Assembly: GCF_010093595.1 (NCBI RefSeq)
Contig: NW_022985453.1
Coordinates: 246,479 to 310,478, forward strand
Length of the DNA: 64,000 bases
From: Mytilinidion resinicola
Lineage: Eukaryota; Ascomycota; Dothideomycetes; Mytilinidiales; Mytilinidiaceae
Reading direction: 5' to 3'
Each line of letters begins with the position of its first letter. Within the stretch, counting starts at the first letter, position 1. The notes below the pieces were generated by a model. The model did no database searches, had not been told where the DNA came from, and worked only from the letters and a program-made list of their open reading frames with translations. This document shows positions 32,043 through 52,917 of this stretch, one piece after another. A program made the position numbers and the translations under genes.

Positions 32043-35000
32043 TCACATCTCATCCATTCCGTTCTCAGATCCGTTCCTGGCGCCTACAAGACCGCTCTCA
32101 ATGTCAGGATCTACCAAATCAATGTCGGCCCTACGCGTGGTATTGTTGATTCCTCCATCCAAATCTTCGTTCGTCGCCTCATCCTCGTCTGTCGCCTGAT
32201 ACACCGTATCTTCGTCCAATCCCTTGTGTAACTGGAATATCTTTTCCAGAAACTTCTTCCCTAGTGCTTTGAATTCTTCGCTTCCTCCTCCACACATTTC
32301 CACAAGACCATTTTCGCAGCCGTTCATCCAATCGTCGTCCACGTTGATTCCCTTTCGATCGTGTAGCGCGGTAAGGAGGTTCGGAGCGCCCTTGAAAAGT
32401 ATCGCCAGCAAGAATGTTGTGTTGTGTTCCTGCAACATATGCGGGGCAAATTTGACTAGACGGTTGCAGTATTTCCTGTAATTATTGAAGACAATGTCTT
32501 CGTCTAGCAAGTTGTCCGCCACTTTTTCAGCTGAGGCATTACTCTTCCCCCGGAGCGGGTGGTCCCAAAGCTGCTGTGCAACTTCGCTGCATGTGACAAC
32601 GTTCTTCTCGCTATACACGAGCGAGGAATCACTGGATTGAAACCTGGGCTTGTAGACAAGCGCTATCTCGTGGAAAGGTATGACATGACCCGCCCAATCC
32701 ACAGCATGTTTCTCATTGCGCTTGATCTTCTTGTAGGCGGACGAAATTGCTCTCTGGGCTGCCAGCCAGGGTGAATTCCCTGACTGGTGTAGCTCGTGTT
32801 CCTTGACGTTATCTTGTGTAGTCTTGTCGCTCGCGAAAACATATGAGTCGTAAGTCAACTGTGGTCTCCATACTTCGTCGTGTATGCATCGCTTAAGAAT
32901 CCTCCTGAGGATTCCGTCGTCCGGATTGGCCACGAACCTAGGCTCGTTGACAGGTGGAGGTCGATCGGAAGTGCGGTCGCCTTTTCCTTTGGCCCCCTTG
33001 TGGGCGACAGCTGTCTGGTGAGTTGTCTTTGCTCCACCAGACTTCCCTCGTAGATTCGCCGTTGCTGGACCTCCCTCGTTAGTCCCTTCGTCATCAGAGG
33101 GCTCTTCACGACGTTGACTCTTCGAAGCTGGAGCGCAGCTGCCGTGTGCATTGGATTTGGGCTTCTGATCCTGCTTCTGTTCCCTTAACTCAGCGATATG
33201 CTCATCTCTGGGGATGTCTCTCATATTTTCGACTACATCTGCATGACCTACCTTTGTTTTCGACAGCGTGGACACAGCTTTGCCGACAGTTGCGTTCGGC
33301 CCTCTACTGGCATCGATTCGAGCGGACCCCTCGTGTAGCCTACCTCCGCCTCCTTTGGGATGACCTCCGCGCGTTGGACCGAGGTCACTACCACGACGTA
33401 TTCTAGGCTTGGCCTGGCCATCGTTCTTCTTTTGCTTCTTCGGCGGAGAATCTTCGCTTTCGGGGTCTTCTTCATCATCCTCAGCACGGCCGCGCTTAGA
33501 AGAGGTATGATTAATGGCCTTCCACCCTTGTTGAGGCATTTCTTCGCGGACCCTCTCCTTCTGATTTCTCGTGCCCTTTGCTGCGTTCGCGACGAGTCGG
33601 GCCTCTTCAGCATCAGGCATGACTTCGTTTCCATCAGTACCATCAGCATCCGTTTCTTCGCTGCGGCCTTGACTTCGTGGGTTCGGCGCACGTCTCCCAG
33701 TTCCCGTTGACTTGTTTCCGGGTCGAGTATTGGAATTCGGCTTCCTGGCCATGTTGCTCTGCTTCCCTTGAGCGGTAGCTCCACGGCCTGCCTTTTTCTT
33801 AGGCTGCTGATTCGGCTCTTTCCCGCGGCCAGGATTTTGATCGTCCTCGTCTTCTTCATCACTGTCAGATTCGTAGTTATCCCCCCCAGGATCATTACCC
33901 GCCTCAGCTTGCTTCCTCGCCTCCTTCAACTGGTCAACGAAATTCTGCGCAAGCTCTCGATGACTTTCGAGTGACGACGGAGCATACTTCCCCCCCGCCT
34001 CAATCTTTTTGATCTTCCTTAACGTCTTTCTCATATCCTTATCCATCCTGACACCGTTTTCGTCCCAATCGTACGTATCGCTCTTATTGAACCACACTTC
34101 ACCGTGTTCAGGATGATTGTATTTGGCGTGGGTTTCTCTCTTGTTGTTCCACTTCTTAAGAGCGCTGCTATCCTTGACATCCCTTGGGAGACCCCAGCTG
34201 TCGTTCCAGCGGATCAGATATTGGGTCTGATATATTGGATTACCGTTTTGGTATGTGCCGACTCTGACGGTACGCCTTGCGCGGATGTCGACAGCGTCAT
34301 ATTGGTCGGCTTTTGTGAGGTTGGGTCGGTGGTTCAAGAAATTTCGCAGCTCGGATGGGACGTCGTCGCTGAAGTGGGTCGGGAGAGATGGACGTGCGGT
34401 TGCGCGTGCGGCTGCAGGTGCGGCGGCGGCGTCCTCTTCTTCCTCTTCCTCCTCCACCTCCGCATTTTCATCGTCGTCGTCAGCGGGGACGGCGAGGTTT
34501 CTGCGTGTATTTCTCGTTGTGGCTTTTGCTTTGGATCTGGTGATTTTCCCCTTGCCCTTATTAGCCGCTTTTGTCGTCTTGCTGCCCGCTCCTCCTTCGT
34601 CAATCAATTCTTCTTCTCCGTCGCCCCGATTCGCCCTTCTCTCGTCGTTGTTTCGGTGGATTCTGTCAAATCGTTGCACGACCTTGCGGCGGTCATGAGT
34701 GGCCTTGCGGCGGTTATCAGCAGCCATATCGCCACCATCGCTACCTTCGAGCATATCACCAACGCCCTGCTCCACCTCGTGGGGTTCATCAGCCTCATCA
34801 CCACCGTCGACTTCTCCCCCGTCCTCAGCCTCGTCTTCCGTGCGTCCACCCCGAGCTGCCGGCTGCTCGATAGCCGCTCGGCCACGAGTGTGAAGCGTCG
34901 CAATCCCCTTCTTCGTCTTCGCGCTCGACTTGTGGGCTGCTTTGCCCGCATGGGCAGCGTCGTTTCCGGCGCCCTCGTTGTCGGATTCAACTTCCGACTG

Positions 35001-35438
35001 ATCGTCGTCTGGCACACGAGCCGGGGTGTGCGGGCTCCGGTTCCTAGCTGCACGGGTCGTCGTTATCGCCCCTTTCCTCGTGCTCGCAGCCTTGGATTTT
35101 TCAACTGCTTGAGCAGGAATCTCATCATCGTCAGATCCGCTTCCCGCCGACTCGTCGTCTGAGGCGACAGGCGGTTCGATGACTCTACCCTTCTTTGCTG
35201 TACGAGTGGTTGCAGTTCCCTTTCTCATGCTCGTCGCTTTGGCTTTGCCCGCGGTTAGTGTTTTCCTAGGAACCGGAGTTTCAGAGTCGGAAGGCGCAGC
35301 GGCCGGTCGGCTTGTTGGGCGACGACGGAGTAAATCCTTTGGCCTGTGGGGCCGTTGCGAGGATCGCCGTTGACGTGCCATGGCACTATCAGTCCGCTGT
35401 CGGATGATAGAAGGTTGACAGGTGTGGTGGGTGTTCAT
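32043..35438 (-). CDS. APH-1: large nuclear-like protein of an unrecognised family, chromodomain-like plus APHML domain
   Basis: Single exon of 1131 aa starting at ATG 35438 (a second in-frame ATG at 35381, MARQRRSS, is possible). Residues 1-340 are disordered and basic/acidic, with repeated TRKG-TTTRAA-like Lys/Arg stretches, suggesting a nuclear protein. About residues 385-440 form a chromodomain-like segment (TQYLIRWNDSWG followed by LKKW). A long K/E/D-rich disordered stretch with PRK-like basic clusters follows. The C-terminal conserved part has RILKRCIHDEVWRPQ (about 843), FHEIALVYKPR (about 925), WDHPLRGK and FAPHMLQEHNTTFLLAILF (about 998). These boxes recur in order in APH-2 and APH-3 and partly in APH-4. 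The TGA stop is followed in frame by 29 acidic/polar codons to TAG at 31953-31955. No known function; chromatin or DNA association is inference. Confidence 0.75.
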   Translation of the reverse strand: MNTHHTCQPSIIRQRTDSAMARQRRSSQRPHRPKDLLRRRPTSRPAAAPSDSETPVPRKTLTAGKAKATSMRKGTATTRTAKKGRVIEPPVASDDESAGSGSDDDEIPAQAVEKSKAASTRKGAITTTRAARNRSPHTPARVPDDDQSEVESDNEGAGNDAAHAGKAAHKSSAKTKKGIATLHTRGRAAIEQPAARGGRTEDEAEDGGEVDGGDEADEPHEVEQGVGDMLEGSDGGDMAADNRRKATHDRRKVVQRFDRIHRNNDERRANRGDGEEELIDEGGAGSKTTKAANKGKGKITRSKAKATTRNTRRNLAVPADDDDENAEVEEEEEEEDAAAAPAAARATARPSLPTHFSDDVPSELRNFLNHRPNLTKADQYDAVDIRARRTVRVGTYQNGNPIYQTQYLIRWNDSWGLPRDVKDSSALKKWNNKRETHAKYNHPEHGEVWFNKSDTYDWDENGVRMDKDMRKTLRKIKKIEAGGKYAPSSLESHRELAQNFVDQLKEARKQAEAGNDPGGDNYESDSDEEDEDDQNPGRGKEPNQQPKKKAGRGATAQGKQSNMARKPNSNTRPGNKSTGTGRRAPNPRSQGRSEETDADGTDGNEVMPDAEEARLVANAAKGTRNQKERVREEMPQQGWKAINHTSSKRGRAEDDEEDPESEDSPPKKQKKNDGQAKPRIRRGSDLGPTRGGHPKGGGGRLHEGSARIDASRGPNATVGKAVSTLSKTKVGHADVVENMRDIPRDEHIAELREQKQDQKPKSNAHGSCAPASKSQRREEPSDDEGTNEGGPATANLRGKSGGAKTTHQTAVAHKGAKGKGDRTSDRPPPVNEPRFVANPDDGILRRILKRCIHDEVWRPQLTYDSYVFASDKTTQDNVKEHELHQSGNSPWLAAQRAISSAYKKIKRNEKHAVDWAGHVIPFHEIALVYKPRFQSSDSSLVYSEKNVVTCSEVAQQLWDHPLRGKSNASAEKVADNLLDEDIVFNNYRKYCNRLVKFAPHMLQEHNTTFLLAILFKGAPNLLTALHDRKGINVDDDWMNGCENGLVEMCGGGSEEFKALGKKFLEKIFQLHKGLDEDTVYQATDEDEATNEDLDGGINNTTRRADIDLVDPDIESGLVGARNGSENGMDEM

Positions 35439-36429
35439 CTTTTTGGGGACAGTAGCTGGGGGGAGGAAGGTTTGTGGAGAGTAGGATGGGGAGCGAGGAG
35501 AGGGCGGTTTTTATGCGAAGGGGTTTGGGGGTTTTGTGGTCGTGGGCTTTGTGGGTTTTTTTCGTGAGGGTTCTAGGGCGGTTGGAGAATGGGCTGGTTA
35601 GTTTACGGCAGGGCGAGTTTGAAAGAGGTGGGGTCTTAGGTGTTCTGGATGGAGCTATTGGGGTTTCTTTGGATGGTGTTGCGGATCTTAATACTGGACG
35701 CTGGACTTACCGGCCACGGTCTATGATACTTACTACGCCTTTTACAGCGTATTCCTAGCTACTCTGGGCATCCTATCATCACCAGAGTCCAGTATCGAGA
35801 CAGAATTGCATCTATCGGGGTCAAAATATTCGTTTTCCCTTCTTCTCAACCCTCTGGATCTGCGTGGTCACTAATAACCGAAACACTCAGTGACAAAGCA
35901 GGCAGAGAACCATCCACGGACTTCTCTTCTACAAACATCTCGGTGGCAGTTCTAGTAGCAAGCGCTTCCTCGCTGTGATGTCGAACGACTTGGAAGATCT
36001 CGGTGATCCCTACTGGACAACAAAGAGAAAGAGCAGCTATTGTCTCACCATGCGGAAGAACGCAGAAGTAAGCAGGTTCTATTGCCATTCGAAATCTTCG
36101 TTCCTATTCCATATCGCGGGCCTGCGTTCACTTACAGTAGCACAACGAATCACTTCCATCTCGAGCATCGAGGTCCTCTCATTCGTTCATTCATTCAAAC
36201 ACGCCTAGGCTACGACGCATGCACGCCAAAATCCCCAAACACGCCTCCACAAAGCCAAACATAATCTATTCGCGTTCAAACTCCCCTCCCTCCCTCCCTC
36301 CCCATCCTATCTCGCGAACGAGTTGCAGATCTGTCCCATTTCCAAGCTCCTAATTCCAGAACCCCACAGCTGGCGATCCGATATCGTCCGCTCCAAACCC
36401 CCCCATCTCCCAGTCCCGCAAACTCGGGT
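35439..36429. other. APH-1 promoter and spacer
   Basis: No supported gene. G-rich, T-run-containing sequence directly upstream of APH-1, then AT-mixed spacer with short chance frames. Confidence 0.45.
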
Positions 36430-36663
36430 CTAGTGTTTGCTATCCCCCAGATAGCGATCCTGTTGTGCCGGCTCTTGGTATCGTGGAGCCTCCTGGGAGC
36501 GTGGAGACTCCTGGTAGCGTGGAGCCTCTTGATATCGTGGTGGATTAGGTTCTTCGTAGCGTGCTGGTGCGGGTGTAGGAGGAGGCGGCCTGGCGTCTCT
36601 GGCCTTCTTCTTGCCCAGGGCGTAGGCGCCGAGGGCGACGAGGCCGAGTTTGATGTAGGCCAT
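36430..36663 (-). CDS. Small protein with N-terminal hydrophobic helix and RYQE repeats
   Basis: 77 aa from ATG 36663; an in-frame extension upstream to 36768 exists but reads as 5' UTR. Residues 3-15 (IKLGLVALGAYALG) form a short glycine-containing membrane helix followed by KKKARDAR. Then a proline-rich tail with imperfect repeats PRYQEAPRYQESPRSQEAPRYQEP. The pattern resembles small tail-anchored or peripheral fungal proteins of unknown role. The repeat explains the self-similar DNA at 36470-36545. No family assigned. Confidence 0.5.
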   Translation of the reverse strand: MAYIKLGLVALGAYALGKKKARDARPPPPTPAPARYEEPNPPRYQEAPRYQESPRSQEAPRYQEPAQQDRYLGDSKH

Positions 36664-37868
36664 TGTTCGATAAGAAGCTGGTAGGAGATGAGTTGTAGGA
36701 GGGGGGTTGGAGGAAGATGGCTTGCTAAAGAGAGAGTAAGACGGGGTTCGATGGAGTGGACTGAACACTCTGGGCTTGAGGTTTGAGACAAAATGGATGA
36801 TGAGGCGTGTGAAACGAGGTGGTTGGCTTGGAGTTGTGTTGAGCTGGTTGTTGATGAGTGTCAGTGTAGAACGGAGGGAGTTGTGGTTTTATATTGAGAA
36901 TGGGTGTCGAGAGATGCTTTTGATGCGCTCAGGGACGCGCTCAGGCGCGGGGCTGTGAGCGCTGGGCCTCGTGGTTGAGAGCCACTGTGACGGGGTTCTG
37001 TACGGCGAAAGGGTTTCGGCGTCGTCAGTGGTAGACGCGTGAAAAGAGGGCGCCGTATACACGAGATCGTGATTGGATCACCGACGGTCTGCGGTGGTTG
37101 TGGCAGTGCCGTAGGGCTGGGGCGGGGACGCGCGGGCGCTGAGCCCTCGCTTGACGGCCAATCAGGAGGGGTGGTGAACGACGTGACGATCTCGGGACGG
37201 GAGAAGTAGAGCTTGCGAGGATTGAGATAGGTAGGGCTTGCGAGTAATGATCGCTTGGATTTGTCTGCAGGATGCTACGACGACCGCATCTAGGATATAC
37301 GACATAGAAAAGAGCCGTCAACTCGCTGTTCAGCTTTCTGAATTCCTCCTGAAATTGTCCGTAGTAGTGCAGATGCCCTCTCTAAATTGAAGCAGTTTTA
37401 TTGGCTCTTCGTGTATCGATGCAAGTGGGTGGTCCATTATGATGCGACCTCGGGTTTGGATCTTGTGACCTCCATGGTTTGGCTGGAGTAGAGGAATCAG
37501 TCGTAATGGAGATCGTAACTGCTCCCTTCCGGTTAATGGTCTTCCAGGCACTCACTGCGGTCACAGTACAAGATCCATTGTTCTCCTTCTCCGAGTGTTC
37601 CGTAACTGGGTCATTTGTTAAGGTCGGGTTGTCCGGGCTGGTGACATGAATATCTCGAGATGATGAGATTGTATTGTCTCCGGCGACGAAGCTGGAGGGT
37701 GGCGAGGACCACGGCGTCGGCCTGGTTGGCTTGCTTGCTGTAGGGAATCCATATTTCTCATTCTCGAGGTATTTAGAAGATGGAACAGCTGGTCAGGCTG
37801 GGTGGATGCAATCGACGAGACGGCATAGTTTTCGGCGGCACGACGTACGGGTAGTCAAGATGCCGGCA
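36664..37868. other. Spacer
   Basis: 1.2 kb. Contains the leader of the small RYQE protein. No other gene seen. Confidence 0.4.
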
Positions 37869-38850
37869 TCAATCACAGACCATGATCTCCGCGGCTTTGA
37901 GGCTTTTGAACCTCTCCAGCTCTGCAAGCTTCTCCTCGTCCTCGGTCGCCTGGCGTGGATGGGTCTGGAGTAAGTCGTAACCTTTCAGCTATTGTAGACA
38001 CCTTCAGGCTTCCACCACCTGCTCCGCTGCGAATTATTTTCTTACCAGTCGGCAGGCTGCATCAATCAGTGTACTGCTCACTGCAGTGTAGGCTGTGTAC
38101 AATCGATCGGTTTCCTTTTCAACTTCCCTCCATGTTGTATGCTCTAACTTGGAATTCGGTACTGGGAAACTCCGAACGCTCCCTCGGGCGACAAGGAGGT
38201 CCGAAGACCGCCGCGAAGGTAAACGAACGGTGTCGGTACGGGTGGGGTTTGTTGAGGCGTCCAAAATCTCGTCGTCGTTCAAAGTGAAGGAAGAGCTGGC
38301 TCCTCTGATACCGGACGGCATGTGTGGTTTTGGCTCTGAGACCAAGGGTAGCTAAGATGGATCGTCACCGTCGAAGCTTTGGAATGGGTTGGTAGCTGGG
38401 AGTTTCCACGCTGTTTGTGTCTCTTTCGGCTTTGCTGGACTGTTTGTTACTCGTTCATATAGTCTCGGGAATCTTCGAGTTTTCTATGTTTCAGTGAGAG
38501 TAATATTGTAGATTTTATAAAGGAACTTACAAGCTGTATCAACCGCGTCTAGTCTCTACTGCTGAGGCGGGAAAACAAGCGGGCTTCGTCTTCGAAGCTC
38601 GCGAGGAGGCCGCGCATGGTCGCGGACTGTACGATGTTGTAAGATGTGCTACCTAGACCGGCAAAAAGGGCGTTGCTAGGATCGCTCAGCGGAGTGATCT
38701 TCTCGAGGTGCGTAGTTTTCAGATCCACCGGAGGTGATGGAGAAGGATAAGTAGACGTTTTGATGTGGCATAGGCTTCACGAGCTAAGCCAAACCGCCGG
38801 ACTATGTGGAGGATTTCGTGAGAACGAAGACGCGACACACTCCTTCCATA
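37869..38850 (-). pseudogene. Unidentified gene, decayed (one frameshift, two in-frame stops)
   Basis: A coding-like minus-strand path is readable. It starts near 38850 with RLRSHEILHIVRRFGLAREA, shifts frame at an AAAA run, then continues PPVDLKTTHLEKITPLSDPS, SNALFAGLGSTSYNIVQSAT and LLASFEDEARLFSRLSSRD to a TAG. A canonical 48-nt intron (GTAAGT...ACATAG) follows, then PRLYERVTNSPAKPKETQ and NPFQSFDGDDPS, a second TAG, and PSGIRGASSSFTLNDDEIL. The path ends with a second intron (GTAAGA...CTCCAG) and THPRQATEDEEKLAELERF up to TGA at 37869-37871. Preserved splice sites and charged helical C-terminus (LAELERFKSLKAAEI) show a former protein gene. I do not recognise the family. No start codon could be fixed. 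Confidence 0.55.
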
Positions 38851-38912
38851 AGACAAGGCAGCAATTCAGTAATTTGTAAGTCTTGTAGTGGAGCGTAAAC
38901 AGAGAGTTGTGT

Positions 38913-38922
38913 AAAAAAAAAA
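38913..38922 (-). terminator. Pol III T-run downstream of the U6 B box
   Basis: Ten consecutive T on the minus strand directly after the B-box block. A shorter T7 run at 38975-38981 is the U6 3' end itself. Confidence 0.55.
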
Positions 38923-38936
38923 GGTTAGGACCTCCA

Positions 38937-38947
38937 GGGCTCGAACT
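38937..38947 (-). promoter_or_regulatory. Downstream B box of the U6 gene
   Basis: AGTTCGAGCCC on the minus strand matches the B-box consensus GGTTCGANTCC at most positions and lies about 30 bases 3' of the U6 terminator. A downstream B box bound by TFIIIC is established for yeast SNR6; its presence here is inferred from the match and position. It is not a tRNA: no A box or anticodon arm precedes it. Confidence 0.6.
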
Positions 38948-38976
38948 CCTTCCCCTCACGTCGCAACAAAACACAA

Positions 38977-39079
38977 AAAAATTTTTGAAGCTACTCTTTG
39001 ATAGAGCGTGTCATCCTTAGTGCAGGGGCCAGGCTAATCTTCTCTGTATCGCTTCAAATTGACCAAATGCCCGAAGGCG
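38977..39079 (-). ncRNA. U6: U6 spliceosomal snRNA
   Basis: Catalytic snRNA of the spliceosome, transcribed by RNA polymerase III. In 5'-3' order on the minus strand: a short 5' stem-loop GCCTTCGGGC; ATTTGGTCAATTTGAAGCG; the ACAGAGA box within GATACAGAGAAGATTAGC (39033-39050 region), which pairs with the 5' splice site and U2; the intact AGC triad; TGGCCCCTGCACTAAGGATG, the U4-pairing and internal stem-loop region; ACACGCTC...; and a 3' T run. Length about 103 nt, normal for fungi. The base after the AGC triad is C (AGCCTGG), where many fungal and animal U6 genes have A (AGCATGG); the triad itself is unchanged. Exact ends are estimated from the TATA spacing and T-run. Confidence 0.95.
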
Positions 39080-39100
39080 AAGTGCGTTGAATTTCTTGGA

Positions 39101-39108
39101 AATATATA
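39101..39108 (-). promoter_or_regulatory. U6 TATA box
   Basis: TATATATT on the minus strand, 22-29 bases upstream of the estimated U6 5' end, the expected position for Pol III type 3-like U6 promoters. Confidence 0.7.
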
Positions 39109-39754
39109 CGCTTAGACGTGGGCGGGTCAGTGCGCAGTTGTCACAACAATGGGACTACAGGCCGCGAGAACTTCGGCAAGAAGCACGCCGCCGTGGCTGG
39201 GTGTCTACTGTGCTTGGCCTTCGCGTCGTGTTCGGAGTTCTCAAGCCCATATGGCTGCCCCAAGCACGCCCACACTGACGGCAGGACACAGTTCCTAAGT
39301 TTAAATGGAGAAATTTTGACTTTTGGAGCCTTCACTAGCTCATGATGATTAACGTGCTCTGAATTTCAAAGTGACGCTCAGACTGAAGTGATTGTCCAAG
39401 TTTTAAGGCAACTCACCATGGTCGGACGACGTGAATGTGCCGCCATCGAGCACTCCCACCTCAATTCACTGGACCTAGTGTCAATTCAAGGCATAAGAAC
39501 CTTCCTCTTTCTTGCACTTCCTCAACCGCTTTCATCCACCACATCCCCCAAAGACCTACCAACTCCCCAACCGTCGTCGTCGACGCCCTGGAACACTCAT
39601 ATCCTAATTCACCAGGACCAACTTCTCCTTGGGGTACAAAACCTCCCCAGCCTTCGTACGTCGACTACGCTTCCTTCTAAAACCCCCACGAAACACCCCA
39701 CACCACGCACTTCTCACTAAATCACACTCGACAATCCACAACAAGTCCACAACC
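39109..39754. other. Spacer and ZnF-1 leader
   Basis: No supported gene. 39480-39754 is C/T- and A-rich leader upstream of the zinc-finger gene; an in-frame open stretch from 39629 lacks an ATG. Confidence 0.45.
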
Positions 39755-40900
39755 ATGAGTTACTCCCAAGACTACCTCCGGTATGGACTGTGCACCACGG
39801 ACGAAGACCACCGTCTCCACGGAAAGAGGTGGTGCTCCCGGCCAGCCAGAGACCGCGCAGTGATAGATGCCCGTGTCCAGGCTCACGAGAAGCAATCGAG
39901 CAAAGCTGTACCGGCCTCGTACCTGTCTGCGGCCGCTGAGAACCGGAACATCGTCATTGTCAACTCGTTCACCGTCACGGGCTTGGATAACGGCCAGAAG
40001 GACGCTATTGCCCAGGAATACAACACTGAGGAGGACGCGAACATGCTTTACGACCCCACCCCAGCTCTCCGACATACTGCAGAGCTCGAGGCCGCCGAAG
40101 CCCTCTTGTTACTTCGATACCCACCTGGACAACGAGGGGTCCCGCTCAACAAACTCCGTGAGTTCGTTATGGGAGATTCCTCGTGCCAGCAACTGACGCC
40201 CTCTACACCATTTCCAGTCTTCCAGCACCCCGGAGGCGTTCCTTTGAACATATTGGGCTCACCATTCCAACCTCCAATGGGTCACAACAGCCCAGTCTCC
40301 CCTTTCCAATTTCCAGTGGGTAACAACAACGCACAAGTTCTCCCTCGTCCTCGCCCTCGCCTTAGCCATGTCCCAACAGGCTACGAAGGACCCACGTTCC
40401 AGCAGTTCATGTCTACTACCCGTGATGCTCAACCGCCGGCAGCGCCTGGTAGAGTCTCGCCATCCCACCGCATGCCCGCCTATGAAGGCCCAACCTACCC
40501 ACCACCTGTGCCCTTACCTCAGCTCGCGCTCATCACTCGGCAACCCCTTACTCTTATCAATCCGCTTACAGCGGTGCCTGCTCCTAACATTCCACCTCCG
40601 CCTGCCCCCGTGTCAACACACGCCCGTCCCTCCACCGCCACCACGCCCACCGCCCCGCTGCTGCCGCACGCCTGCCCCTCCTGCGGTAAGGCCTACGCAG
40701 AGCGGAAGAGCTTGTCCTACCACATGCACCGGGCGAAGAGCCGGTGCACGGATCCGCCGGGTTTGAGCGAGCGGGTGAAGGAAGAGCGGTTCAAGCCGTT
40801 CAAGTGTGAGGGGTGTGTGGAGCGGTATCAGCATGAGTCGCAGTTGAGGAAGCATCGGGAGGTGACGGGGTGCGGTAGAGGGAATGCGGTGGAGGGATAG
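39755..40900 (+). CDS. ZnF-1: zinc-finger protein with one RCTDPP module
   Basis: 381 aa from ATG 39755 (MSYSQDYLRYGL), the first in-frame ATG. Residues 1-115 are mixed and probably folded (GLCTTDEDHRLHGKRWCSRP). The centre is proline-rich and disordered (about 150-310). The C-terminus holds two zinc fingers: finger A CPSCGKAYAERKSLSYHMH...C, the spacer RCTDPPGLSERVKEER, and finger B CEGCVERYQHESQLRKH...C. Both fit C-x2-C-x12-H with a last ligand Cys (C2HC variant). The same A-RCTDPP-B arrangement occurs twice in ZnF-2 at 50.0-51.0 kb, so these are paralogues. A DNA-binding role is likely from the fingers but unproven. It lies 2.8 kb upstream of APH-2 on the same strand. Confidence 0.8.
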   Translation: MSYSQDYLRYGLCTTDEDHRLHGKRWCSRPARDRAVIDARVQAHEKQSSKAVPASYLSAAAENRNIVIVNSFTVTGLDNGQKDAIAQEYNTEEDANMLYDPTPALRHTAELEAAEALLLLRYPPGQRGVPLNKLREFVMGDSSCQQLTPSTPFPVFQHPGGVPLNILGSPFQPPMGHNSPVSPFQFPVGNNNAQVLPRPRPRLSHVPTGYEGPTFQQFMSTTRDAQPPAAPGRVSPSHRMPAYEGPTYPPPVPLPQLALITRQPLTLINPLTAVPAPNIPPPPAPVSTHARPSTATTPTAPLLPHACPSCGKAYAERKSLSYHMHRAKSRCTDPPGLSERVKEERFKPFKCEGCVERYQHESQLRKHREVTGCGRGNAVEG

Positions 40901-41710: not shown

Positions 41711-42620
41711 CTATAGTAGATACCAGTCTTCCAGGGTGCCGTTCCTCTTCACGAAGCAACCCAAGCTTTTTACTTCGACACCTCCTCTCTGTTGATGCTC
41801 CTTCATCTTGATCTCTAGATGGCGCAATAGTAACGGCCATGTCGTGCATTCAAGAAAGTTCGAGAATGCTAAGATCTTTCCGGGGCTTGTCGTCCATACT
41901 ACAATATGAACCAATACTGTGGCCATTGGAGCTCCGGATGGGAACACCAGCATAACATCGCACATGCCGTTTATTGACGACATAAGATTTGTTCTTGAAG
42001 CGGTCATCCAAAGTCAAGTCATTTACGGTGAAAGATGTGACGTCGATGTTGCCGGATTCTGTAGCCTCTTGCATCATTGGCATCTTGACAGTATAATCGC
42101 AGAGCCCATTGCCCTTAGTGAATACAGCTCGACCCCGCTGTAGGTTACCTTGGGGGTCTAGGGCTGTGCCGGTCTGCAGTGACAAAGTTCGGGTGGCTTC
42201 CAATCGCGTATGCTTCGCGTCAGAGGTGGGCTGGCTGAGGCCATTGGCAAACGCCCCATACTGAGCAATGAACTTTTGTGGTCTGTCGAATCGGCTGAAT
42301 GGAGTACGCCGGAGACGAGTCGGAGCGGAGATGCGTGGTTGAGGTAGCGGACGCTGGGGGAGCTGTTGGTCGGACGATGGTGTCCATGCAGAGCTTCGCT
42401 GGTGTCCACTATGGACAGAATCAGTGGTTCTGATAGTGGCGCAGTAGTTCCGATATCTCTTCGCCGTCGTCGGAGCTCTCGGAGCGTGCGGAAATGATGT
42501 TAGGTGGTGTGGGTAGTTACGGTCTCTGGGTAGAAAGTTCTGACTCGTCCGGCGGTTAAGGCGGTGATGTCCCATCTGCCAGCGGCGATCAGAGAAGGAC
42601 GGTCTGGTAGAGTAGCTCAA
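41711..42620 (-). pseudogene. Hybrid histidine kinase relic: N-terminal region and GAF domain only
   Basis: Reading from about 42620 on the minus strand: an arginine/serine-rich start, then FAQYGAF-like sequence (IAQYGAFANGLSQPT), EATRTLSLQ, and a GAF-domain core: VNDLTLDDRFKNKSYV, VRCYAGVPIRSSNGHSIGSY and CSMDDKPRKDLSILEL. This matches the sensory N-terminus of fungal hybrid histidine kinases (phytochrome-like two-component sensors). Near 41866 the frame shifts by one and continues as NFLECTTWPLLLRHLEIKM to VKRNGTLEDWYLL and a stop at about 41714. The family normally continues with HisKA, HATPase and receiver domains; none are present downstream. So this is a truncated, frameshifted remnant, not a working kinase. 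Confidence 0.7.
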
Positions 42621-43728
42621 TTGTGGACCTGCTTTGTGTCACTTTAGTCGACTGTCGGAGGAGACAGCAATATGCGGTTGTTGGTCGGGGACGGGCGTTC
42701 GCGCAGTAGAGGCTGAACAGGCAGGCAATTTGGGGTCAGATATCTCTGTTTGCAAAGGTAGGGTGTGCGGAAGCTGGTATAGAGGTTGAGATAAAGCTGA
42801 GAGTGTCGGAACGAGGTATTACGAACGTTCGAACAAGTGTGATCTAGCAGATATGCAGAGAGTACGGGAAAGTAGATTTAAGTCGGGGCATTGTTGCACA
42901 GCCCGAGGAATGTGATTATGGAGGTATAGATAGGAGATTGAGGCTCCACGGAGACGCGGAGGAGTGGGTGACTGGGGAAAGCGATTCGTGCACTGACGGA
43001 GACGGAGATGACGCTGTCTTTTGAAGGTCAATGACTCTGTGCCAGACCCAATAGCGGAGTAGTCTTACTCGGCACCATGCCAGCCTTTATCTTGCGTATG
43101 GTGAAGGGCTCAGATTCGACTTTCGTCTTGCTTCTGTACATGTAGTGTGATTTTGAAATCGACAATAATGGGAATGTGTTTCCGAACGAGGTCTGTGGTC
43201 GACATGCCGGCAGATCACTCCGCTGCCGCCAGTCGAAGTCAGAGTCTCAGCACTTAAATTTAGCCGCTCAAGGTCTTTCCTGCACATGAGTCCTTGGATA
43301 GTATATCACGGAGCTCCGCATCGGCAGAGGAAGAGTCACCTTTCCAAGTACAGGTGTCAGAATACCGACGAGTTGTGTCATAATTCCGAGGGTCCAAATC
43401 GCAATCACGGAGTCACAGTGATGTCAAAACAAACGGGGTTTCCCGCATGTATTCGCAGAAGCAAACTTGGAAGAGTTTCGCCGAAATTTCCAGAGCAGCG
43501 GTCTTGTAGACAATCTCAATAACAAGCAGCACATCCATGGAAGAACTTGGAATTCTCACGAGAAAGCAGCAAACAACCCTAAACTGGCTGATTAAAAGGC
43601 ACGCCGCTATCTCCATTGCTCGGAGCACCGCATTCCTCTCCATCACCACCTTTCATCTTTCCCACTCGCAAAACGAGTTTGTAGACAGTCATATCGCACG
43701 CCAACCTTGAGTTCCTCCATTCGCCAAC
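42621..43728. other. APH-2 promoter and spacer
   Basis: 1.1 kb with no gene. Contains the APH-2 leader (CATCACC, CTTTCATCTTTCCC stretches). Confidence 0.45.
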
Positions 43729-45048
43729 ATGGGACCTAAGCGAGTAAAAGACAAGACGCCGGCCAGAAAAGGAGTCGCAAGGAAAGTCAGCACGCGATCG
43801 GCTGATGAGAGCTCGCGATCCAATGCCACGCCAGCCGCAGAACGCCTAAAACCACTTGCACAGCAGATCGAAGAATCCGACATCCCAAAGAAGTTCAAGG
43901 AAAGCCTCAAAATGACCGCTGCAGAAAGAGACCCCAAAATGTTCCCGATCGTGGACATTATCTTACAGCAGACATACCCCGGTTTCTCAGACAGAAAATC
44001 AGATTACTTGGTTGAATGGGAAGTAGCCTGGGCATCCGAAGACAGGGTGAAGAAGAGTGTTCTCAAATACTGGAAGGACCTCAAGACTGATAAAGACGAG
44101 TTTGGCCAGCCGCGTGTCGATACGAGTATCGAGAACGTTATTATCAACAAGGACTACCTTCTCCCGATATCAGTGGGAGGCATCACGTTGCAAGAAGCTA
44201 CGAAAACGGCGCTGCTGGAGATAAGAGAGGTTGAGCCTGAAGGAACGTACTCTTTCAAGCTACTTCGACAGCATTTGCGAACTATCACCACCCTTCAGGA
44301 GCAATATCGCTCGATGCTAATGGAGCACGGCCAATTAACAGATCACGAAACTCCTCGTCTTGAAGAGCTTCTGAGGTGTATCGTCACGACCTGCACGGAG
44401 AGGAGAGTATGGAATCCAGACCGCGTACAAGGACTCTATACTCTCTCTTTGCCCGATGGGGACGACAATCTCAGAGAGACTGTAGAATTTCTGGATGTCG
44501 AAAATGCGGCCCTTGAAGCTTGGAGTATTCTTGAAGGGAAGTTTCAAGAGGAACCTGAAGGTAGTGTAGAGACCTTTCTCAAAGACTACGAAGATCTACG
44601 AGTTACATATCTTCCAGACCCCACCATGGGAACTAAACCTAAGCGCGCAGCCTTGTGTTTCATAGACCTGGTTGACACGATGTGGAACAATCCGCTCCTC
44701 CGGATAATGGAAGCGGCACCAAAGCCGGGACATGACAACACACTACTTGAGGTCAAGTTTGCAAAGAGCTTGAAGGTTCTTGTGCCGGACATTGTGAATT
44801 ACGCACCGCACATGCTGCATGAGAACAACGAGACACTATTGCTTGCCCGGCTTTTCTATTCAAGAGATGAGCTCGAGCAGCTCCTCCGAGAGAGACATAT
44901 TCATGTGAGAGATGACTGGCTATACGAATGCGAGGGAAAGCTTCTGCTCAGCCTGCAAGATGAACATGACAGTCGGAGTCTAGAGGAATTGAGGAAGACC
45001 TTTGATGAATTGCACGAGCACATGCAGAGACTTCTGAAAAAGGAGTAA
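43729..45048 (+). CDS. APH-2: compact member of the APH family
   Basis: 439 aa from ATG 43729 (context CAACATGG), single exon. A basic N-terminus (GPKRVKDKTPARKGVARKV) suggests nuclear location. Residues 74-117: chromodomain-like (VDIILQQTY...SDYLVEWEVAWA...LKYW). Residues 165-195: VEPEGTYSFKLLRQHLRTIT, also found in APH-3. Then ERRVWNPD (224-231), YEDLRVTYLPD (287-297), WNNPLLRI (319-326), YAPHMLHENNETLLLARLF (358-376) and a helical coiled C-terminus (ELRKTFDELHEHMQRLLKKE). The TAA stop (45046-45048) is followed by 40 open in-frame codons that are strongly acidic (EVEDLEEEVPEEEAPVESEA) and end with RRSNRGNGNPKKA, so the stop probably shortened an older tail. No known function. Confidence 0.8.
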   Translation: MGPKRVKDKTPARKGVARKVSTRSADESSRSNATPAAERLKPLAQQIEESDIPKKFKESLKMTAAERDPKMFPIVDIILQQTYPGFSDRKSDYLVEWEVAWASEDRVKKSVLKYWKDLKTDKDEFGQPRVDTSIENVIINKDYLLPISVGGITLQEATKTALLEIREVEPEGTYSFKLLRQHLRTITTLQEQYRSMLMEHGQLTDHETPRLEELLRCIVTTCTERRVWNPDRVQGLYTLSLPDGDDNLRETVEFLDVENAALEAWSILEGKFQEEPEGSVETFLKDYEDLRVTYLPDPTMGTKPKRAALCFIDLVDTMWNNPLLRIMEAAPKPGHDNTLLEVKFAKSLKVLVPDIVNYAPHMLHENNETLLLARLFYSRDELEQLLRERHIHVRDDWLYECEGKLLLSLQDEHDSRSLEELRKTFDELHEHMQRLLKKE

Positions 45049-45799: not shown

Positions 45800-46930
45800 G
45801 TGCACCATTTCTCTGAACAAGAAATTGTGGAAGCCTTGGGCACCTCAGCAGGAGACGAAATCAATAAGAATAACGAGTATGGCATGGCCAACGTACTAAT
45901 AGAGCGAAAGAAAGCTAAGAAAGCAAAGAAAAACAACAAGCTCGAATACTATGTGGAGTGGAAGAAATGCTGGGTTGAGGAGCTCCAGCTGAAGCCTGAA
46001 GCCAAGAATGATTGGAATCAGCTAAAGCGTCAGGGTGGGGTGGAAAAGAGACATGGAGTAACCATGCATAAGGCGTGTCTACCCCCGCGGGCCGAAGGAG
46101 GAACTTCTCTAGATCCAGAGGAGCGAGAATCGTAAGAAAATGTCAAGAGCATTCATCCTGAAGGAACCTACTCCGAGAGAGCTATGTTGGAGCAGTTCAG
46201 GGCTATTACAACCTTCAGAAACTACTACAAGAGGATCCTTGTGAGCCGATCCAAGAGCCTTCTTGGGAGGATATTTCAGATGTGTCAGGAAGCTAAAGTG
46301 TGGGATCCAAAGCACGCGAAGGGCTGCTACGAATATTACGAGGACGATGGTGAACGGATGCAGCTCGATGAAGGGACGAAGAGCGTTGATCAATTGATAC
46401 AAATGGCTTTGAATTCCCTCTCCGCGAATAGTTCGAGGACTTTGACGTCCATCCTTGAGAAATACGATGAAATCAAAGTCGTCTATCGACCCCCAAATGG
46501 CACTAGTCCAAGTCAGCCAATTCATCTCCGACAATTGATTAATGCGATGGTAGGACATCGACTCAGAGAGACGGCGACATCAGCCGAAGAAACGGCAGAA
46601 AAGTTTCTCGGCAATAACTTTGAGATCATGGAGTGGGAGGAACCGATGAAGAAGATGATACGTCGAGCGCCGCACATGCTACACACAAGCAACGCTACAT
46701 TCCTGATCGTAAGGCTCTTCTACTCATTGGAGTATATTACCAAATGTCTCCAAGAGAGAAATATCAACTGGTATGAGAATGAGCTCAAGGGGCGCGAGCA
46801 GACACTGCTAGCAACCCTGGGGGATGAGAACGACAAGGAAGATCTGGCGGCACTGGTGGAGAGCTTTGAAGTTCTGCGTGAGTTTACGCAGGAAGTTCTG
46901 TCCGAGAAAAGAGTTTTCTACGTCAAATAG
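45800..46930 (+). pseudogene. APH-3: APH family member with an in-frame stop
   Basis: Tandem neighbour of APH-2, same strand, about 0.75 kb apart. One frame reads from about 45800 to 46930, interrupted by TAA at 46133-46135. The chromodomain-like part is clear (ANVLIERKK...KLEYYVEWKKCWV...WNQL). After the stop come IHPEGTYSERAMLEQFRAIT, EAKVWDPK, YDEIKVVYRPP and RAPHMLHTSNATFLIVRLF, then ERNINWYENELKGREQTL and a helical end. The stop falls just before a segment conserved with APH-2, so it is not removed by an intron that keeps the frame, although a donor-like GTAAGA overlaps it. No ATG opens the N-terminal part. A possible shorter product from ATG 46184 would keep the C-terminal half. Confidence 0.65.
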
Positions 46931-47989
46931 TACCGTGGGCCTACGGGCAAGTTTGGCGCATCGAAACAGCTCTGATACCCTATATTAGGGTGTTTTAGAG
47001 CTAGGTGATGCCACGGAACTTAAATGGCTACTGCCGGCACCCCTTCAGTGTTAGCAATGTTAGACTTCGGAATCAAGTAACTTTTTGTTTTGACTTGCTA
47101 TGTGTGACCTTTTGAGACTAGTTGATGAGAAGGTGACGGAAAAGGCAACAGTAAAAGCCCGACTCCACCAGACAAAGACACCGTGTGAGAATTGGTCAGA
47201 TTGCTTGTGTTTTGAGGCATAGTCGTGATTCCGGAAGACTCAGAAGTCATCCGATACGAACCGTTTGTTAGAAAGGGACTTCGACGAGAGGCTGGCTTGA
47301 TTTGGAATATCCACGAAGCTTGGCGCGGAGAGATCCTTTCAAGCTAGCTTATGTAACCAAAGCCGTCGTCTCCGCTCCTTTGCAGTTGTTTGCCTCATAC
47401 CACCTGCTGTGGATGATGAAACCCCTTGTCCAGGCTCGCCACTACATCTGCGGTCATGGCCCGAAGCAAGAACTCCCATCCAAGCGCAAGCAGAAGTCCA
47501 GCTCAAAGCCACCACTTATGACAACCCGAAAACCGGCTGCTAAGAGCATCAACAAAACGCAAAAGAACGACCGAGTGACCTAAACGAATGCACAAAGCCT
47601 CGCAGGGTGCCCCTCCGTAAGTAGACGAGACGATCATCTCAGAAGACTGCAAAGCTGGTTTGAAGATATTCACGAAGCATAGGAATCCTCTGTCACCGGA
47701 ATCAAGGCTATCGTCTTGCAGTAAACCCATCGTAACGGCAACAAGGAGGATTGCGTTGTATGGCATAACGGATGGGTATCTTAGGCGGCAGTCAACAAGA
47801 ACGCTTGGGAGGGATGGAAAGGCACGTGAGAGAAGGCGGGAGACTGGCTCGATCCAAGCATCGAAGGCGTGGCGATCAACAAGGCGGCAAGGCCTATCTT
47901 CCGTCAAGAATGGAGGGGTTATTACATGGCTATAACAGTACAACGGCCAAGGACAAGATTGTTTGACTACACTGGATGATGATGCAAAT
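46931..47989. other. Spacer with a possible relic frame on the minus strand
   Basis: The minus frame 47994-47503 (163 codons, no ATG near its start) reads protein-like sequence (RPCRLVDRHAFDAWIEPVSR, LVAVTMGLLQDDSLDSGDRG), but no family is recognised. Plus-strand 47458-47520 starts MARSKNSHPSAS, faintly like the MARQRRSS start in APH-1, and then stops; it may be a dead APH N-terminus. Both are weak. Confidence 0.3.
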
Positions 47990-49060
47990 TGCACGTGATG
48001 ATATTACAATGACTTCCACGTGCTGACAACCATGGGAGGTGGCCTAGATTGGCATTCAAAAGCGAAAAAAGATGTTCAGCTCTGTAGGGCATAAACTGCA
48101 CTAGGTAGTTTGTTGTTTGTTTTCTAGGCATCTTCCACCGCGGCACGTGGTATAACCATGCATAATATCCTTTGACAGGATATCAAAGATTGGAAAGCCT
48201 AAGTTGAATGGCCGAACTCATGAGAGTTTCTAGCTAGTGAACGCTGCCTGAGGTGCCCTAGCTATGCAGAAAGGTTTGCGATATGATGTTAGAAGCTCCA
48301 GATTGTAAAATCAACGGCATGGAGTAAGAACCGTATTCCAGGATGGAGCCGCTGCGGGAGGTGCTCTAGATGCCCTTGAAGTTAGTGACAGATGGTGAAC
48401 GACTGTAGACTATAAATTGAACAAGCTAGCATCACATTGACTCTCCTGCTAGAAGCCGCTGTCAGACTGCCTTTGGGATTCCCTGCGAAATTTCAAGAGG
48501 AGACGGTGAAAATTAGAGAGGTTACAAAGCTACTATATTTCCAGGTGCCTGTCGGCGTCTGAGGTGGCCTACAAAGGCGTAGATCTGCAGAATAGGATGT
48601 CAAAGATTTGAGTGTGAATTGCACGTGACGGAACAGAAGGGGGTTTCCGGGTGCATACCATTGCAGGAGGTATGTCACGTGCTGGGAAGATTTTAGGTAA
48701 ATATATTAATTCAGAGGGTGAGTATCAGAAGGAACAAATCTACTACTCTTCCAGGTATTTGCCGGCGTTGGAGGTGGCCTACATACGTGTAATACCGTAG
48801 GAAATAGTGTCTAGAATCAGAGGGTGTGGTTTGCACGTGATAGAGCTCCAGGAATATTCTGGGTGCACGCAACCACGGGAGGTGGTCTAGATTGGCGTGA
48901 AGGTGCAGAGTAGGATTTAAGACATTAGATGGTGCACATCAGAATGGGTGCAATTACACTACTTCTTAGGATTTACTAACGTCAGAGGTGCCCTCACGTG
49001 CTCTTAGGTTTCCAGATGGATGTCAAAGCTTGGAGGGTGAATATGAGAAGGGGTGTGAAT
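47990..49060. repeat. Cluster of diverged repeat units with CACGTG and GAGGTGCCC cores
   Basis: About eight units of roughly 90-130 bases. Each has variants of GGGAGGTGG(C/T)CTA or GAGGTGCCCT, GATGTCAAAG-TTTGAGGGTG and GCACGTGA. Seven CACGTG hexamers lie at 47992, 48017, 48144, 48622, 48676, 48834 and 48995, and one more at 47823. No gene is present. The last unit, in reverse orientation, closely matches the unit at 51225-51300. Confidence 0.6.
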
Positions 49061-49349
49061 CCGGCTGCCGGCGTTTGGGGTGACCTACATCATCATTACA
49101 CTCCGCAGCGCCAAGCAGCGAGGACAACACGATCATTCACAGTCAAGCCGAGAATGGCACCTCTCTGGGCATGCAAAGACCTCTTTACACTTCCCACAGG
49201 GTTTGCTTCTTCGAAAAACTCTCGTACCCCCCACCACCATCTACTTTGACTCACACTCTATCTCTTAGCTTGCCAGCTTGACCGGTATAACACTACGTCG
49301 GAAATCTGCGCTCATAATCACACTGCTGCTTGGTTACCACTTTGGAAGC

Positions 49350-49530
49350 TGGACATCACTGTCGGTAGTAGCCCCGTTGCTAGGTAGCCGGTCAGGCAAG
49401 AGTTCAACTAATTTGCAGTGCCGACCTTGGTATCGTGTCGCCAATATCCCGCCGATTGAACGCCGCCCTTGCTCCATCGATACCACTGTGAGGAGTGGCC
49501 CAGCCAGTAGAAAGTCGTTTAGTCGGGAGC
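49350..49530. repeat. Two repeat units directly upstream of ZnF-2
   Basis: Units at about 49350-49420 (GTAGCCCCGTTGCTAGGTAG) and 49471-49530 (CCACTGTGAGGAGTGGCCCA, GCCAGTAGAAAGTCG). Both align with the 160-bp array units at 54.2-56.1 kb; the second ends exactly where the open frame's first ATG (49531) begins. Confidence 0.55.
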
Positions 49531-49887
49531 ATGCTCGTCGAGGCAGACAAGGAAAACCTCATAGCTGAAGATCAAGATGCTGTGGAAGCTGTCGATGACT
49601 TCTTCCGTGCGCCGTTGGAGGGCTTCGAAGATATCGTTGATCTGCCTAGACTTCGAAGGCATACCATCCTGGAGTCCTCTTCCTCCTCTTCCTCCTCCTC
49701 TTCTCTGTCTCCTCCACGATCTCCAACGTCTTCTCACACTCCTTCAAAGCGTCAAGGACCTTTCGATTCGCCAGAGGTGCTTCCAACTTCGAACCGTCAG
49801 ATTCCACCCTTTGATCCGCCAACACAAGCCTCATCGTTGATTCACCAACCTACGGCATCTCTAAGCTCCAGGATTCTCCCGCCGCCC
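49531..49887 (+). other. Possible former N-terminal part of ZnF-2
   Basis: 119 codons from ATG 49531 (MLVEADKENLIAEDQDAVEA), acidic then a polyserine tract and Pro/Ser-rich disorder, ending at TAG 49888-49890. The frame then continues open into ZnF-2 (ATG 50035) without shift. Either an unrecognised intron removes the stop (no good donor is visible) or the stop has cut off the ancestral N-terminus. Confidence 0.4.
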
Positions 49888-50034
49888 TAGGCTACCCACA
49901 CACCCGGTCACTTCCATCTAGGTAACTATGTTCTTCCTACCCATACCCCAAACACCTTTCACCAAGGTCTTGAGACCACTCTTCAGCCTGTTGGTAGGTG
50001 GAACGCTTCTGGACCGCTGTTTCTAACCAAAAAT

Positions 50035-51003
50035 ATGGATGGTATAGCCTATAGATCAGGCCTAGCCACCGACGAGCAGGCTCCTCCCCCTCCCAATCCC
50101 GTAAAGAGCTCACTAACGGCAACAGTTCTGAGGCAAGGCGCAGTAGTAGTGCAACCATCTCGGACCGCCCTCCACGTCCCTACGATACCAGACACAGCGA
50201 CTCCTCGCGCAGGCGCCGCTACTAGCAACAACTCTACGGAGCGACACAAACGGACCTTCACATGCTCGAATTGCGGGAAGGAGTATGGGACTAGGGAACG
50301 GCTGAAATACCATCTCCATGAGGCGAGAAACCGGTGTACAGACCCGCCCGACATGACGGAGAAGGAGAGGGATGAGCGCGACGAGCAATTCATGGTTCAC
50401 AAATGTCCGAATTGTGGGAAGCGGTTTCGTAACACGGCCAACCTCAACATGCATCTGAAGACTTGCGCCAGCGCTTCGAACCCCAGTGCCTACGGGCAGA
50501 CCCCGCTCGCTCCGACCACTACACTTGCGCCTGCTGGGCAACCTCCACGAGTCGGCTACCAGCCCAGGGCGACCGCAAATCTCCACACCACTCCGGAGAG
50601 GAAGAAACACAAGTGCGATAACTGTGGCGTCACCTACACCTCCTGGAGCAGGCTTCACTATCACCTTCACGAAGCTAGGGACAGATGCACGGATCCTCCG
50701 GAGATGACCGCGGAGGAGAAGGACGAGCGAGCGAAGGCGTTCTACAAACACGTTTGTCCGCGGTGTGGGAAGGGCCACCGAAACCAGGCAAATCTCAACT
50801 GGCACCTTACGCATCAAATCTGCGGCGCCGCAGCTGGCAATACTACCTCATCCCTCTTCGCCCAGCCCACACCAGCATCGGCATCAACTTCTTCTGGCAC
50901 GGCGATCCAGACGACATCGAGCTTTGGACAAGCATCGCAAGCGCATCCTTCTGGGTGGATGCCGATCAATGAGGGTGAGGACAATGGGGATGCAGATGAA
51001 TAG
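50035..51003 (+). CDS. ZnF-2: zinc-finger protein with two RCTDPP modules
   Basis: 322 aa from ATG 50035 (MDGIAYRSGL). Two copies of a two-finger module. Module 1: CSNCGKEYGTRERLKYHLHEA..C, RCTDPPDMTEKERDERDEQF, CPNCGKRFRNTANLNMHLKTC. Module 2: CDNCGVTYTSWSRLHYHLHEA..C, RCTDPPEMTAEEKDERAKAF, CPRCGKGHRNQANLNWHLTH..C. All use C-x2-C-x12-H and a terminal Cys, the same variant as ZnF-1. The linkers are Pro/Ala/Thr-rich. The C-terminus is acidic (NEGEDNGDADE). The module duplication inside this gene, and its single copy in ZnF-1, suggest a small expanding family. It is convergent with APH-4 (480 bases apart). Function unknown; sequence-specific DNA binding is inference. Confidence 0.82.
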   Translation: MDGIAYRSGLATDEQAPPPPNPVKSSLTATVLRQGAVVVQPSRTALHVPTIPDTATPRAGAATSNNSTERHKRTFTCSNCGKEYGTRERLKYHLHEARNRCTDPPDMTEKERDERDEQFMVHKCPNCGKRFRNTANLNMHLKTCASASNPSAYGQTPLAPTTTLAPAGQPPRVGYQPRATANLHTTPERKKHKCDNCGVTYTSWSRLHYHLHEARDRCTDPPEMTAEEKDERAKAFYKHVCPRCGKGHRNQANLNWHLTHQICGAAAGNTTSSLFAQPTPASASTSSGTAIQTTSSFGQASQAHPSGWMPINEGEDNGDADE

Positions 51004-51482
51004 AGAAGGTTTGATAGACTTTGGAAAGTATTTTTATAGGTAGTTGGGCTACCTCAAACAGCGCTGTGGGCCCAGAAAATATCACTAACTCAACTATGTC
51101 CAATTTACGCTCTCCGATCATTAACATCTTGCCTTGCAGCTTTTCATCAATCTGGGCCACCCCTAATGCCGGCAAGCACCTAGAAATGTTGTAGATTTAC
51201 ATCCTTTCTGATATCCACTCTCGAATCCTTGACATCCGCCTTGAAATTTTTGAGCACGTGAGGGCACCTCCTACAGCGTCATCACCCCTCCAAAACAGCA
51301 CCACCTTCCAATTTCAACATCCATATCAATCACCTTTGCACTAGTGTTCAAATTAGAAGTATGAAATCGTATCATTGACTGCATGTTTGGCCTCATTGAA
51401 GCTGGAAGGAACCCCTATCTACTATTCCCAGAACTCCTCTCGCTGCATGCTGATATGAAGCCCGTTCTAAACGGGACAACTA
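51004..51482. other. Convergent spacer ZnF-2 / APH-4 with one repeat unit
   Basis: 51225-51310 carries TTGACATCC, GAGCACGTGAGGGCACCTCC and CAGCGTCA, the clearest single copy of the dispersed repeat core. No gene. Confidence 0.55.
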
Positions 51483-52917
51483 CTAACCGGAAGAACCAGG
51501 GGGAGGGGCCACACTTCCGCCAGGAGAAGCACCAGGACCGCCATTGGTACCCGAAGCAGAAGAACCACCAACACCGCCATGTCCAAAGAAGCCACCATAT
51601 CCACCCGCCGCCTGACCCAAAGATCCACCATCAGGGCCCGGAGCCTGCATCACGCTTCCGCCCAAAGATCCGCTTCCGTTGCTTCCACCACCATTTATCC
51701 ACGTCGCCTGGCCACTTCCGGGAGTTGTTGAGGACGAAGCCACCGCCTTGCGGTACTGTCGGGGACGACTTGTCCTGCTCTTAGGGGTCGCCGACACCGC
51801 CTTGATCTTCTTCTGGAGCTCGTTGGCCGCCGAGTCAAAGCCCCATTTGTCCTCTTGGGTCAGCCAGCCTAGCAGATGTTTCATCAGTTCCGACTTCCTG
51901 TGGGACATGGTGGAGCCCTCCACACGGATCCCGCTCTCAGCGAAGCGTGAGCAGATTTCAGCTCGAGGGATGATTAAGAGGACGATGAGGAGCGAAATGT
52001 TGTCATTGTCCAGTAGATGGGGCGCGAAGTCGATGATTGAGCGGCCTTGGTGTTGGATCTCCTGCAGGCGATGGGGGGCCGTTGCGTGGAGGATCTCGAA
52101 GGCGGTGTCCCACGGGCGCGTCATATCTTTGCACATGTGGTTCTCCAACTGCCACGCCACGCTCTCGACCGAAATGGGGTAGATCTGGGTGCGGTCGATG
52201 GCATTTGTGGCGTCCGAGGACACAGTGCCGGGGACGTAAATGACCTCGATGTCGTCAAATGGCGCATCGCGTGCGACTGCTTTGCCCTTACCCTTTGCAG
52301 GGTCGGCGTGCGCCGTGGAGGCCTCCGCGGCAGTGTCGCGCGCGGCCTGCTCTTGAAGAGCCTCTTCGTCGGTTATAGGGCCTACGTTTGCGGCGGCGTC
52401 TAGGTCGGCTTGACGCTTCAGCTCCTCTCGGGCGCCCTTGATGGCATCAACTGGGGCCATGAAGCCAAAAGATTGGGCCAGGGCCTGGGAGCCAGGAGCC
52501 CACTCAAAGCGCGAGAGTTTACGTTCGACGTCTTGTGGTCTGATCCACTTCTGCAGCCAGGGCTGCTCGGCCATAATGTAGCATAAGACCCGTGTAAGGG
52601 CCTTCTGCTGCTTCTCGCCAGGGCTCAGAGGGGCGCCGGCGGGGTAGTAGAGCGACTCGGTGAGGGCATGAGCCTGCTTGATGATGCGGTTGCGGTCATT
52701 GTATGTGGGCTCTCTGCCGTTGGGTAGTTGCTCCAGCAGCGAGGCGAAGGCCTCCAAGAACTTGTCGTCGAACGGCACAGTTGGGTCGACTGCAGGCTGG
52801 GTTAGCGGTGTGACGCGAAACCGATGAATGTTGATGAACGTTGGACTTACCGGAAGACTGCGCGGCTTGCACGGCCTGCGGAGAGGGCGCGAGCGGGCTC
52901 AGGCTGACGTTGTTCAT
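51483..52917 (-). CDS. APH-4: divergent APH family member without the chromodomain-like part
   Basis: Two exons on the minus strand: 52917-52851 (ATG, MNNVSLSPLAPSPQAVQAAQ) and 52789-51483, with a 61-nt intron (GTAAGT...CTGCAG, phase 1); 457 aa. The N-terminal third is helical (FASLLEQLPNGREPTYNDRN, LTRVLCYIMAEQPWLQKWIR). A basic linker (DPAKGKGKAVARD) follows, then FDDIEVIYVPG (about 201-211), which matches the D-I-x-V-x-Y-x-P box of the other APH proteins, and FAPHLLDNDNISLLIVLLI (277-295), the APHML box. The last 110 residues are a Gly/Ser-rich low-complexity tail. This is the only member of the four with a confirmed intron and no in-frame stop problem, so it may be the active one. Its promoter contains a 188-bp tandem repeat. 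Confidence 0.8.

Follow-up and report, generated by a model that had tools for sequence, protein, structure and literature searches.

A class-wide fungal protein family without a Pfam entry and three strongly diverged paralogues bearing a chromo-like segment in Mytilinidion resinicola

Mytilinidion resinicola is a bark-dwelling fungus (Dothideomycetes, Mytilinidiales). The window analysed here, 64,000 nucleotides in length (C17:246479-310478, where C17 and similar labels denote contigs of its genome), contains four genes, A to D, whose proteins share a C-terminal core referred to as APH. Profile comparisons show the four to be homologous over a core of about 120-130 amino acids, spanning the motifs termed boxes 3 to 5, while homology outside this core is plausible. 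D represents the conserved parent type; the other three, A, B, and C, are diverged copies that carry an extra segment resembling a chromodomain. Taken as a whole, we propose with a probability of about 0.35 that these would be adaptor proteins of the nucleus and that the local copies acquired a chromatin tether.

The gene island

The genes and their APH regions are as follows.

32043-35438, minus strand: gene A, single open frame, 1131 amino acids
32226-32939, minus strand: APH region of A, residues 834-1071
43729-45048, plus strand: gene B, single open frame, 439 amino acids
44329-45045, plus strand: APH region of B
About 45.8 kb to 46930, plus strand: gene C, open frame of 402 amino acids with one TAA
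46202-46927, plus strand: APH region of C, inside the open frame 46136-46930
51483-52917, minus strand: gene D, 457 amino acids; exon 1 at 52851-52917, intron at 52790-52850, exon 2 at 51483-52789
51720-52691, minus strand: APH region of D, as aligned

Reading of the window placed all four genes where a preliminary description had put them, and the letters it quoted for boxes 2, 3, and 5 are correct. In A, a charged low-complexity N-terminus is followed by the chromo-like segment, about 315 residues of low complexity, and then the APH core. Once its one 61-nucleotide intron is removed, D is an exact match to the public M. resinicola protein BDZ99DRAFT_574146.

Homology of the shared core

Searches of the organism's own genome (47.1 Mb, 44 contigs) connect A, B, and C directly. 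With B as query, C is found at an E-value of 5e-29 and A at 5e-10; B matches A and C only, and A matches B and C only. Within the island, blastp was run among five pieces (C2 being a piece of C), a tiny search space that flatters the E-values, which in the two directions were 5e-13 and 4e-13 for A-B, 7e-27 and 2e-25 for B-C2, 3e-11 and 1e-8 for A-C2, 2e-4 and 0.026 for D-A, 3e-4 and 0.033 for D-B, and 0.005 and 3.2 for D-C2. Across the whole genome, D as the sole query reaches A only at 0.385, so profiles are needed to tie D to the other three.

A hidden Markov model (HMM) of the D family was built from 47 proteins with D excluded, its E-values being stated for 20,000 sequences. It scores A at 27.3 bits (1.9e-6), B at 17.9 bits (0.0013), and C2 at 11.0 bits (0.17); by this core profile, from which the query itself is left out, taken with the shuffle controls and the hhalign comparison below, all three belong to the APH family. 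Shuffle controls comprised six sets of 2000, in which A, B, or C2 was shuffled over the whole protein or in 20-residue windows. None of the 2000 shuffles in any set equalled the real score, and the top shuffle reached 6.3 bits. In a single hhalign comparison, a profile of A, B, and C aligned with one of 23 of the 47 D relatives (D excluded) at a probability of 97.5% and an E-value of 6e-12. The 117 aligned columns run from box 3 through box 5 and into the stretch beyond, and boxes 1 and 2 were aligned with near-zero confidence in a wider profile alignment. The earlier claim that the four share motifs in the same order therefore holds in the form of a homologous C-terminal core, and genome search, HMM, hhalign, and shuffle controls agree that they are true paralogues.

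Gene D and its family

The D family was found to comprise 48 protein clusters, D's own included, and the 20 that are named are all from Dothideomycetes. Its members are uncharacterised proteins such as Lophium mytilinum BU16DRAFT_175216. Pfam scans of A to D returned no family above its cut-off, while 47 of the 48 members had no match at an E-value of 0.1 and one was marginal at 0.094. Two PDB sequence searches likewise gave no described family above cut-off, with best E-values of 0.26 and 0.01, in line with the initial impression that no described family is involved. By these sequence comparisons, D is shown to be a conserved member of a family absent from Pfam.

The structure model of D is confident, with 244 of 457 residues at a predicted local distance difference test score (pLDDT) of at least 90. 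It is made up mostly of helices with two short strands, and no known fold was found when it was used in a fold comparison. At the C-terminus, 33 of the 48 family members have an exact motif such as EPMDLS or EPMDVD, which we take to resemble a CtBP-type PxDLS ligand.

Divergence of A, B, and C

The three genes share the APH core with the BDZ99DRAFT_574146 family but are far more diverged. A core tree was built from 51 rows (48 D-type plus A, B, and C) and 133 columns; the program cautions that the placement of long rows in such a tree is uncertain. One branch parts A, B, and C from all 48 with support of 100/98. The end branches of the three measure 2.7-10 changes per column and are saturated, compared with a median end branch of 0.058; the strong divergence reported at the outset is thus true of A, B, and C. 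Residues invariant among the 48 (e.g., the GTVS loop, PHxLDNxN, and GIRxEGST) are kept in small number by the three, in box 5 such as P, H, L, and N, and they are therefore distant paralogues of the D type rather than orthologues. The four genes are not of equal standing: conservation marks D, whereas the other three are extremely diverged and alone carry the chromo-like segment. Of the four, only A, B, and C can be covered by the suggested label of a lineage-specific system; the family of D spans the Dothideomycetes with a strongly constrained core. With branches this saturated, A, B, and C may be either young runaway copies or what is left of an old sister lineage; that they stand beside D favours local duplication.

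Public protein searches found no outside relatives of A or B; C was not searched alone. B returned only the window's own protein. The C-terminal region of A returned nothing at an E-value of up to 1 among 948 candidates, A itself included, and because the search missed A itself, A may be absent from the searched database.

The main rival explanation holds that A, B, and C, or at least C, are relics: ancient copies of D, or of a sister gene since lost, that drift with little or no function. We regard this as unlikely, though a serious contender. The region is dynamic, decay is a frequent fate of copies, A and B have no public protein record, and C is interrupted by a stop that the preliminary description does not mention.

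46133-46135, plus strand: in-frame TAA of gene C

From 46132 the sequence reads GTAAGA, like a splice donor, and the next 150 nucleotides offer seven in-frame AG acceptors (46179, 46200, 46218, and later). Just past the TAA, C resembles the coding sequence of B (IHPEGTYS and VEPEGTYS), which would point to an intron arisen from coding sequence or to a broken copy. On sequence, C could be either a broken copy or the carrier of a candidate intron. Set against decay are the intact open frames of A (1131 amino acids) and B (439 amino acids). Identity at codon positions 1/2/3 is 0.45/0.61/0.39 for B-C, 0.47/0.56/0.31 for A-B, and 0.44/0.57/0.31 for A-C, so that the second position is most alike and the third least, as under protein-level constraint, although picking alignments on protein similarity favours such a pattern. 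For D-A the values are 0.30/0.59/0.32, with the first position lowest.

A chromo-like segment in A, B, and C

The segments are located as follows.

34128-34310, minus strand: chromo-like segment of A, residues 377-437
43930-44100, plus strand: chromo-like segment of B, residues 68-124
45866-46042, plus strand: chromo-like segment of C

All three contain Y-L/Y-V/I-x-W-xxx-W and a later W, and D is without such a segment. A profile of the three segments matched nine PDB sequences at an E-value of up to 10. Six belong to chromodomain proteins (three cpSRP43, two CDYL, and one Chromo domain-containing protein 1), and the other three are one PHF19 and two aminopeptidase records. The matched stretches of cpSRP43 are presumably its chromodomains. 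A slightly wider segment profile gave seven matches, four of them from chromodomain proteins. This concentration appears unlikely to be accidental, though it is carried by one strand motif.

Chromodomain proteins (PF00385; cpSRP43, CDYL) resemble the segments in the Y-L/Y-V/I-x-W motif, the second tryptophan, and a following stretch that ends in tryptophan. They differ in that A, B, and C have just three residues between the first two tryptophans, that the segments have no Pfam match, and that the remaining protein is unrelated. As regards the chromodomain fold, a sheet of three strands plus a C-terminal helix, the B model has two strands and a helix in the segment at a low pLDDT of about 38-58 per block. 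The YxVxW segment described earlier as chromodomain-like can be upheld as weak chromodomain character in A, B, and C, and with support below threshold we term it chromo-like rather than a chromodomain.

Structure of B and a resemblance to ERH

The model of B, built without any D sequence, has a pLDDT of 51.6. Its better part (model residues 311-380) reaches 63-84 in 10-residue blocks, and the order of elements there is suggestively similar to that in the D model. Of the fold agreement that the preliminary description looked for among the four, the models cover B and D, and given the low confidence of the B model the agreement is suggestive.

44419-44703, plus strand: ERH-like part of B, residues 231-325 of the low-confidence model

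This region of B superposes on structures of ERH, the family (PF01133) of Schizosaccharomyces pombe Erh1. It could be that A, B, and C hold a hidden ERH relative, a dimerising nuclear fold with RNA-silencing partners, behind the chromo-like segment, which we consider improbable. B differs from ERH in that a PF01133 profile test gave no sequence similarity beyond chance, and no PF01133 match was found in the organism's own genome. ERH is described as never having gained another domain (PMC10605862). More speculative still, and very unlikely, is that A, B, and C would be proteins tethered to chromatin, with a diverged dimerisation fold of ERH type hidden in their core, in a group of fungi said to have lost ERH, and that they form a fast-evolving set of gene-silencing adaptors around the class-wide partner D.

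Dispersed copies and genomic surroundings

When the D protein was searched against the genome, 11 rows were returned, namely D, A (0.385), one at 5.35, and eight more at E-values of up to 0.0023 on C23, C6, and C17. A DNA search with the 2.5-kb D locus gave eight matches besides itself, one of which is a local inverted repeat; an equally long control stretch around a GH47 gene gave one. In this small comparison with one control, D is unusual in its dispersed DNA matches.

C23:371.7-380.1 kb, C23:256.3-256.6 kb, C6:579.3 kb, C17:465.5 kb, and C20:315.4 kb: dispersed D pieces, 68-90% DNA identity

The pieces derive from exon 2 and the 3' flank, and none found spans the intron or exon 1. Short D pieces elsewhere on C23, C6, C17, and C20 add to the case for A, B, and C as relics, but these pieces resemble D rather than A, B, or C. 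In a DNA search with the 17.1-kb stretch of A, B, and C, none of the at least 22 matches listed (the self-match being absent) lies inside these genes. As that listing is incomplete, the absence of dispersed A, B, and C copies is carried by the protein searches. Seventeen of the 22 listed matches fall at 38.9-39.2 kb, with 76-93% identity to stretches on C1, C2, C6, C10, and C23; a U6 small nuclear RNA gene lies at 38979-39078 on the minus strand. Positions 41722-42201 are 89% identical to C6:898771-899255, the site of an open frame of at least 500 amino acids, and are probably a copied gene fragment. The window's open reading frame at 41850-42638 (minus strand) has no Pfam match above cut-off; we take it to read like a piece of a GAF sensor.

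39752-40900, plus strand: first C2H2 zinc-finger gene
50035-51003, plus strand: second C2H2 zinc-finger gene

In the genome, the second zinc-finger gene matches the first at an E-value of 3e-16 and otherwise, at up to 0.01, two stretches of C7 (0.003-0.005). This pair is also paralogous, and thus two families have been duplicated in the same 21 kb. A 77-nucleotide inverted repeat, 79% complementary, lies on both sides of the second gene (48985-49061 and 51194-51270). Directly upstream of D is a tandem repeat (52975-53417) of 2.3 copies of a 188-bp unit.

Near the island are a HET-domain gene (13855-16059) and a reverse-transcriptase open frame (17836-19374). The former, about 16 kb from A, together with the strong divergence of A to C, might suggest an allorecognition (heterokaryon incompatibility) locus of fast-evolving recognition genes. 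This is very unlikely: HET genes are common in such fungi, Pfam finds the HET domain (PF06985) in none of A to D, and D is conserved class-wide, unlike a polymorphic recognition gene. Domestication of the island genes from a chromodomain-bearing mobile element would fit the chromo-like segment and the nearby reverse transcriptase, but Pfam gives no integrase, transposase, or reverse transcriptase match in A to D, and A and B match only each other and C in their own genome, making such an origin scarcely credible. An earlier suggestion of action on mobile DNA is not borne out either, with no transposon family matched by A to D in Pfam.

Proposed role

We favour the reading in which the mostly helical APH core would serve as a protein-protein interaction module of nuclear proteins, with D as a general adaptor. 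Local copies in the M. resinicola lineage may have acquired or kept the chromo-like segment and then diverged fast. The segment might tether the APH module to modified histone tails, and A to C could in this way recruit D's partners at chromatin or compete for them.

Several points weigh against this proposal. The best E-value of the segment profile in the PDB, 0.012, sums two weak stretches that alone score 4.2 and 79; among single stretches shown, CDYL does best at 0.044, and the matches depend largely on the YLVxW motif. Pfam gave no match at an E-value of 10 for four pieces, in a search whose filters drop most weak matches, and the 68 PF00385 matches in the genome all lie outside the island. 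Chromatin action cannot be the family's common job, because the conserved D is without the chromo-like segment. A nuclear location of A to D is unsupported, since the K-K/R-x-K/R pattern, seen four times in A, twice in B, and once each in the first piece of C and in D, could occur by chance. Given the missing public records for A and B and the interruption of C, some or all of A to C may be decaying.

The family represents a clear unknown, as its fungal core is conserved across a class and has a confident predicted structure, and neither a Pfam family nor a matching fold was found for it. The ERH resemblance, if real, would bear on the loss of ERH that has been reported for higher fungi. The three runaway paralogues beside D offer a natural experiment on how a new targeting segment is gained by a protein under constraint.
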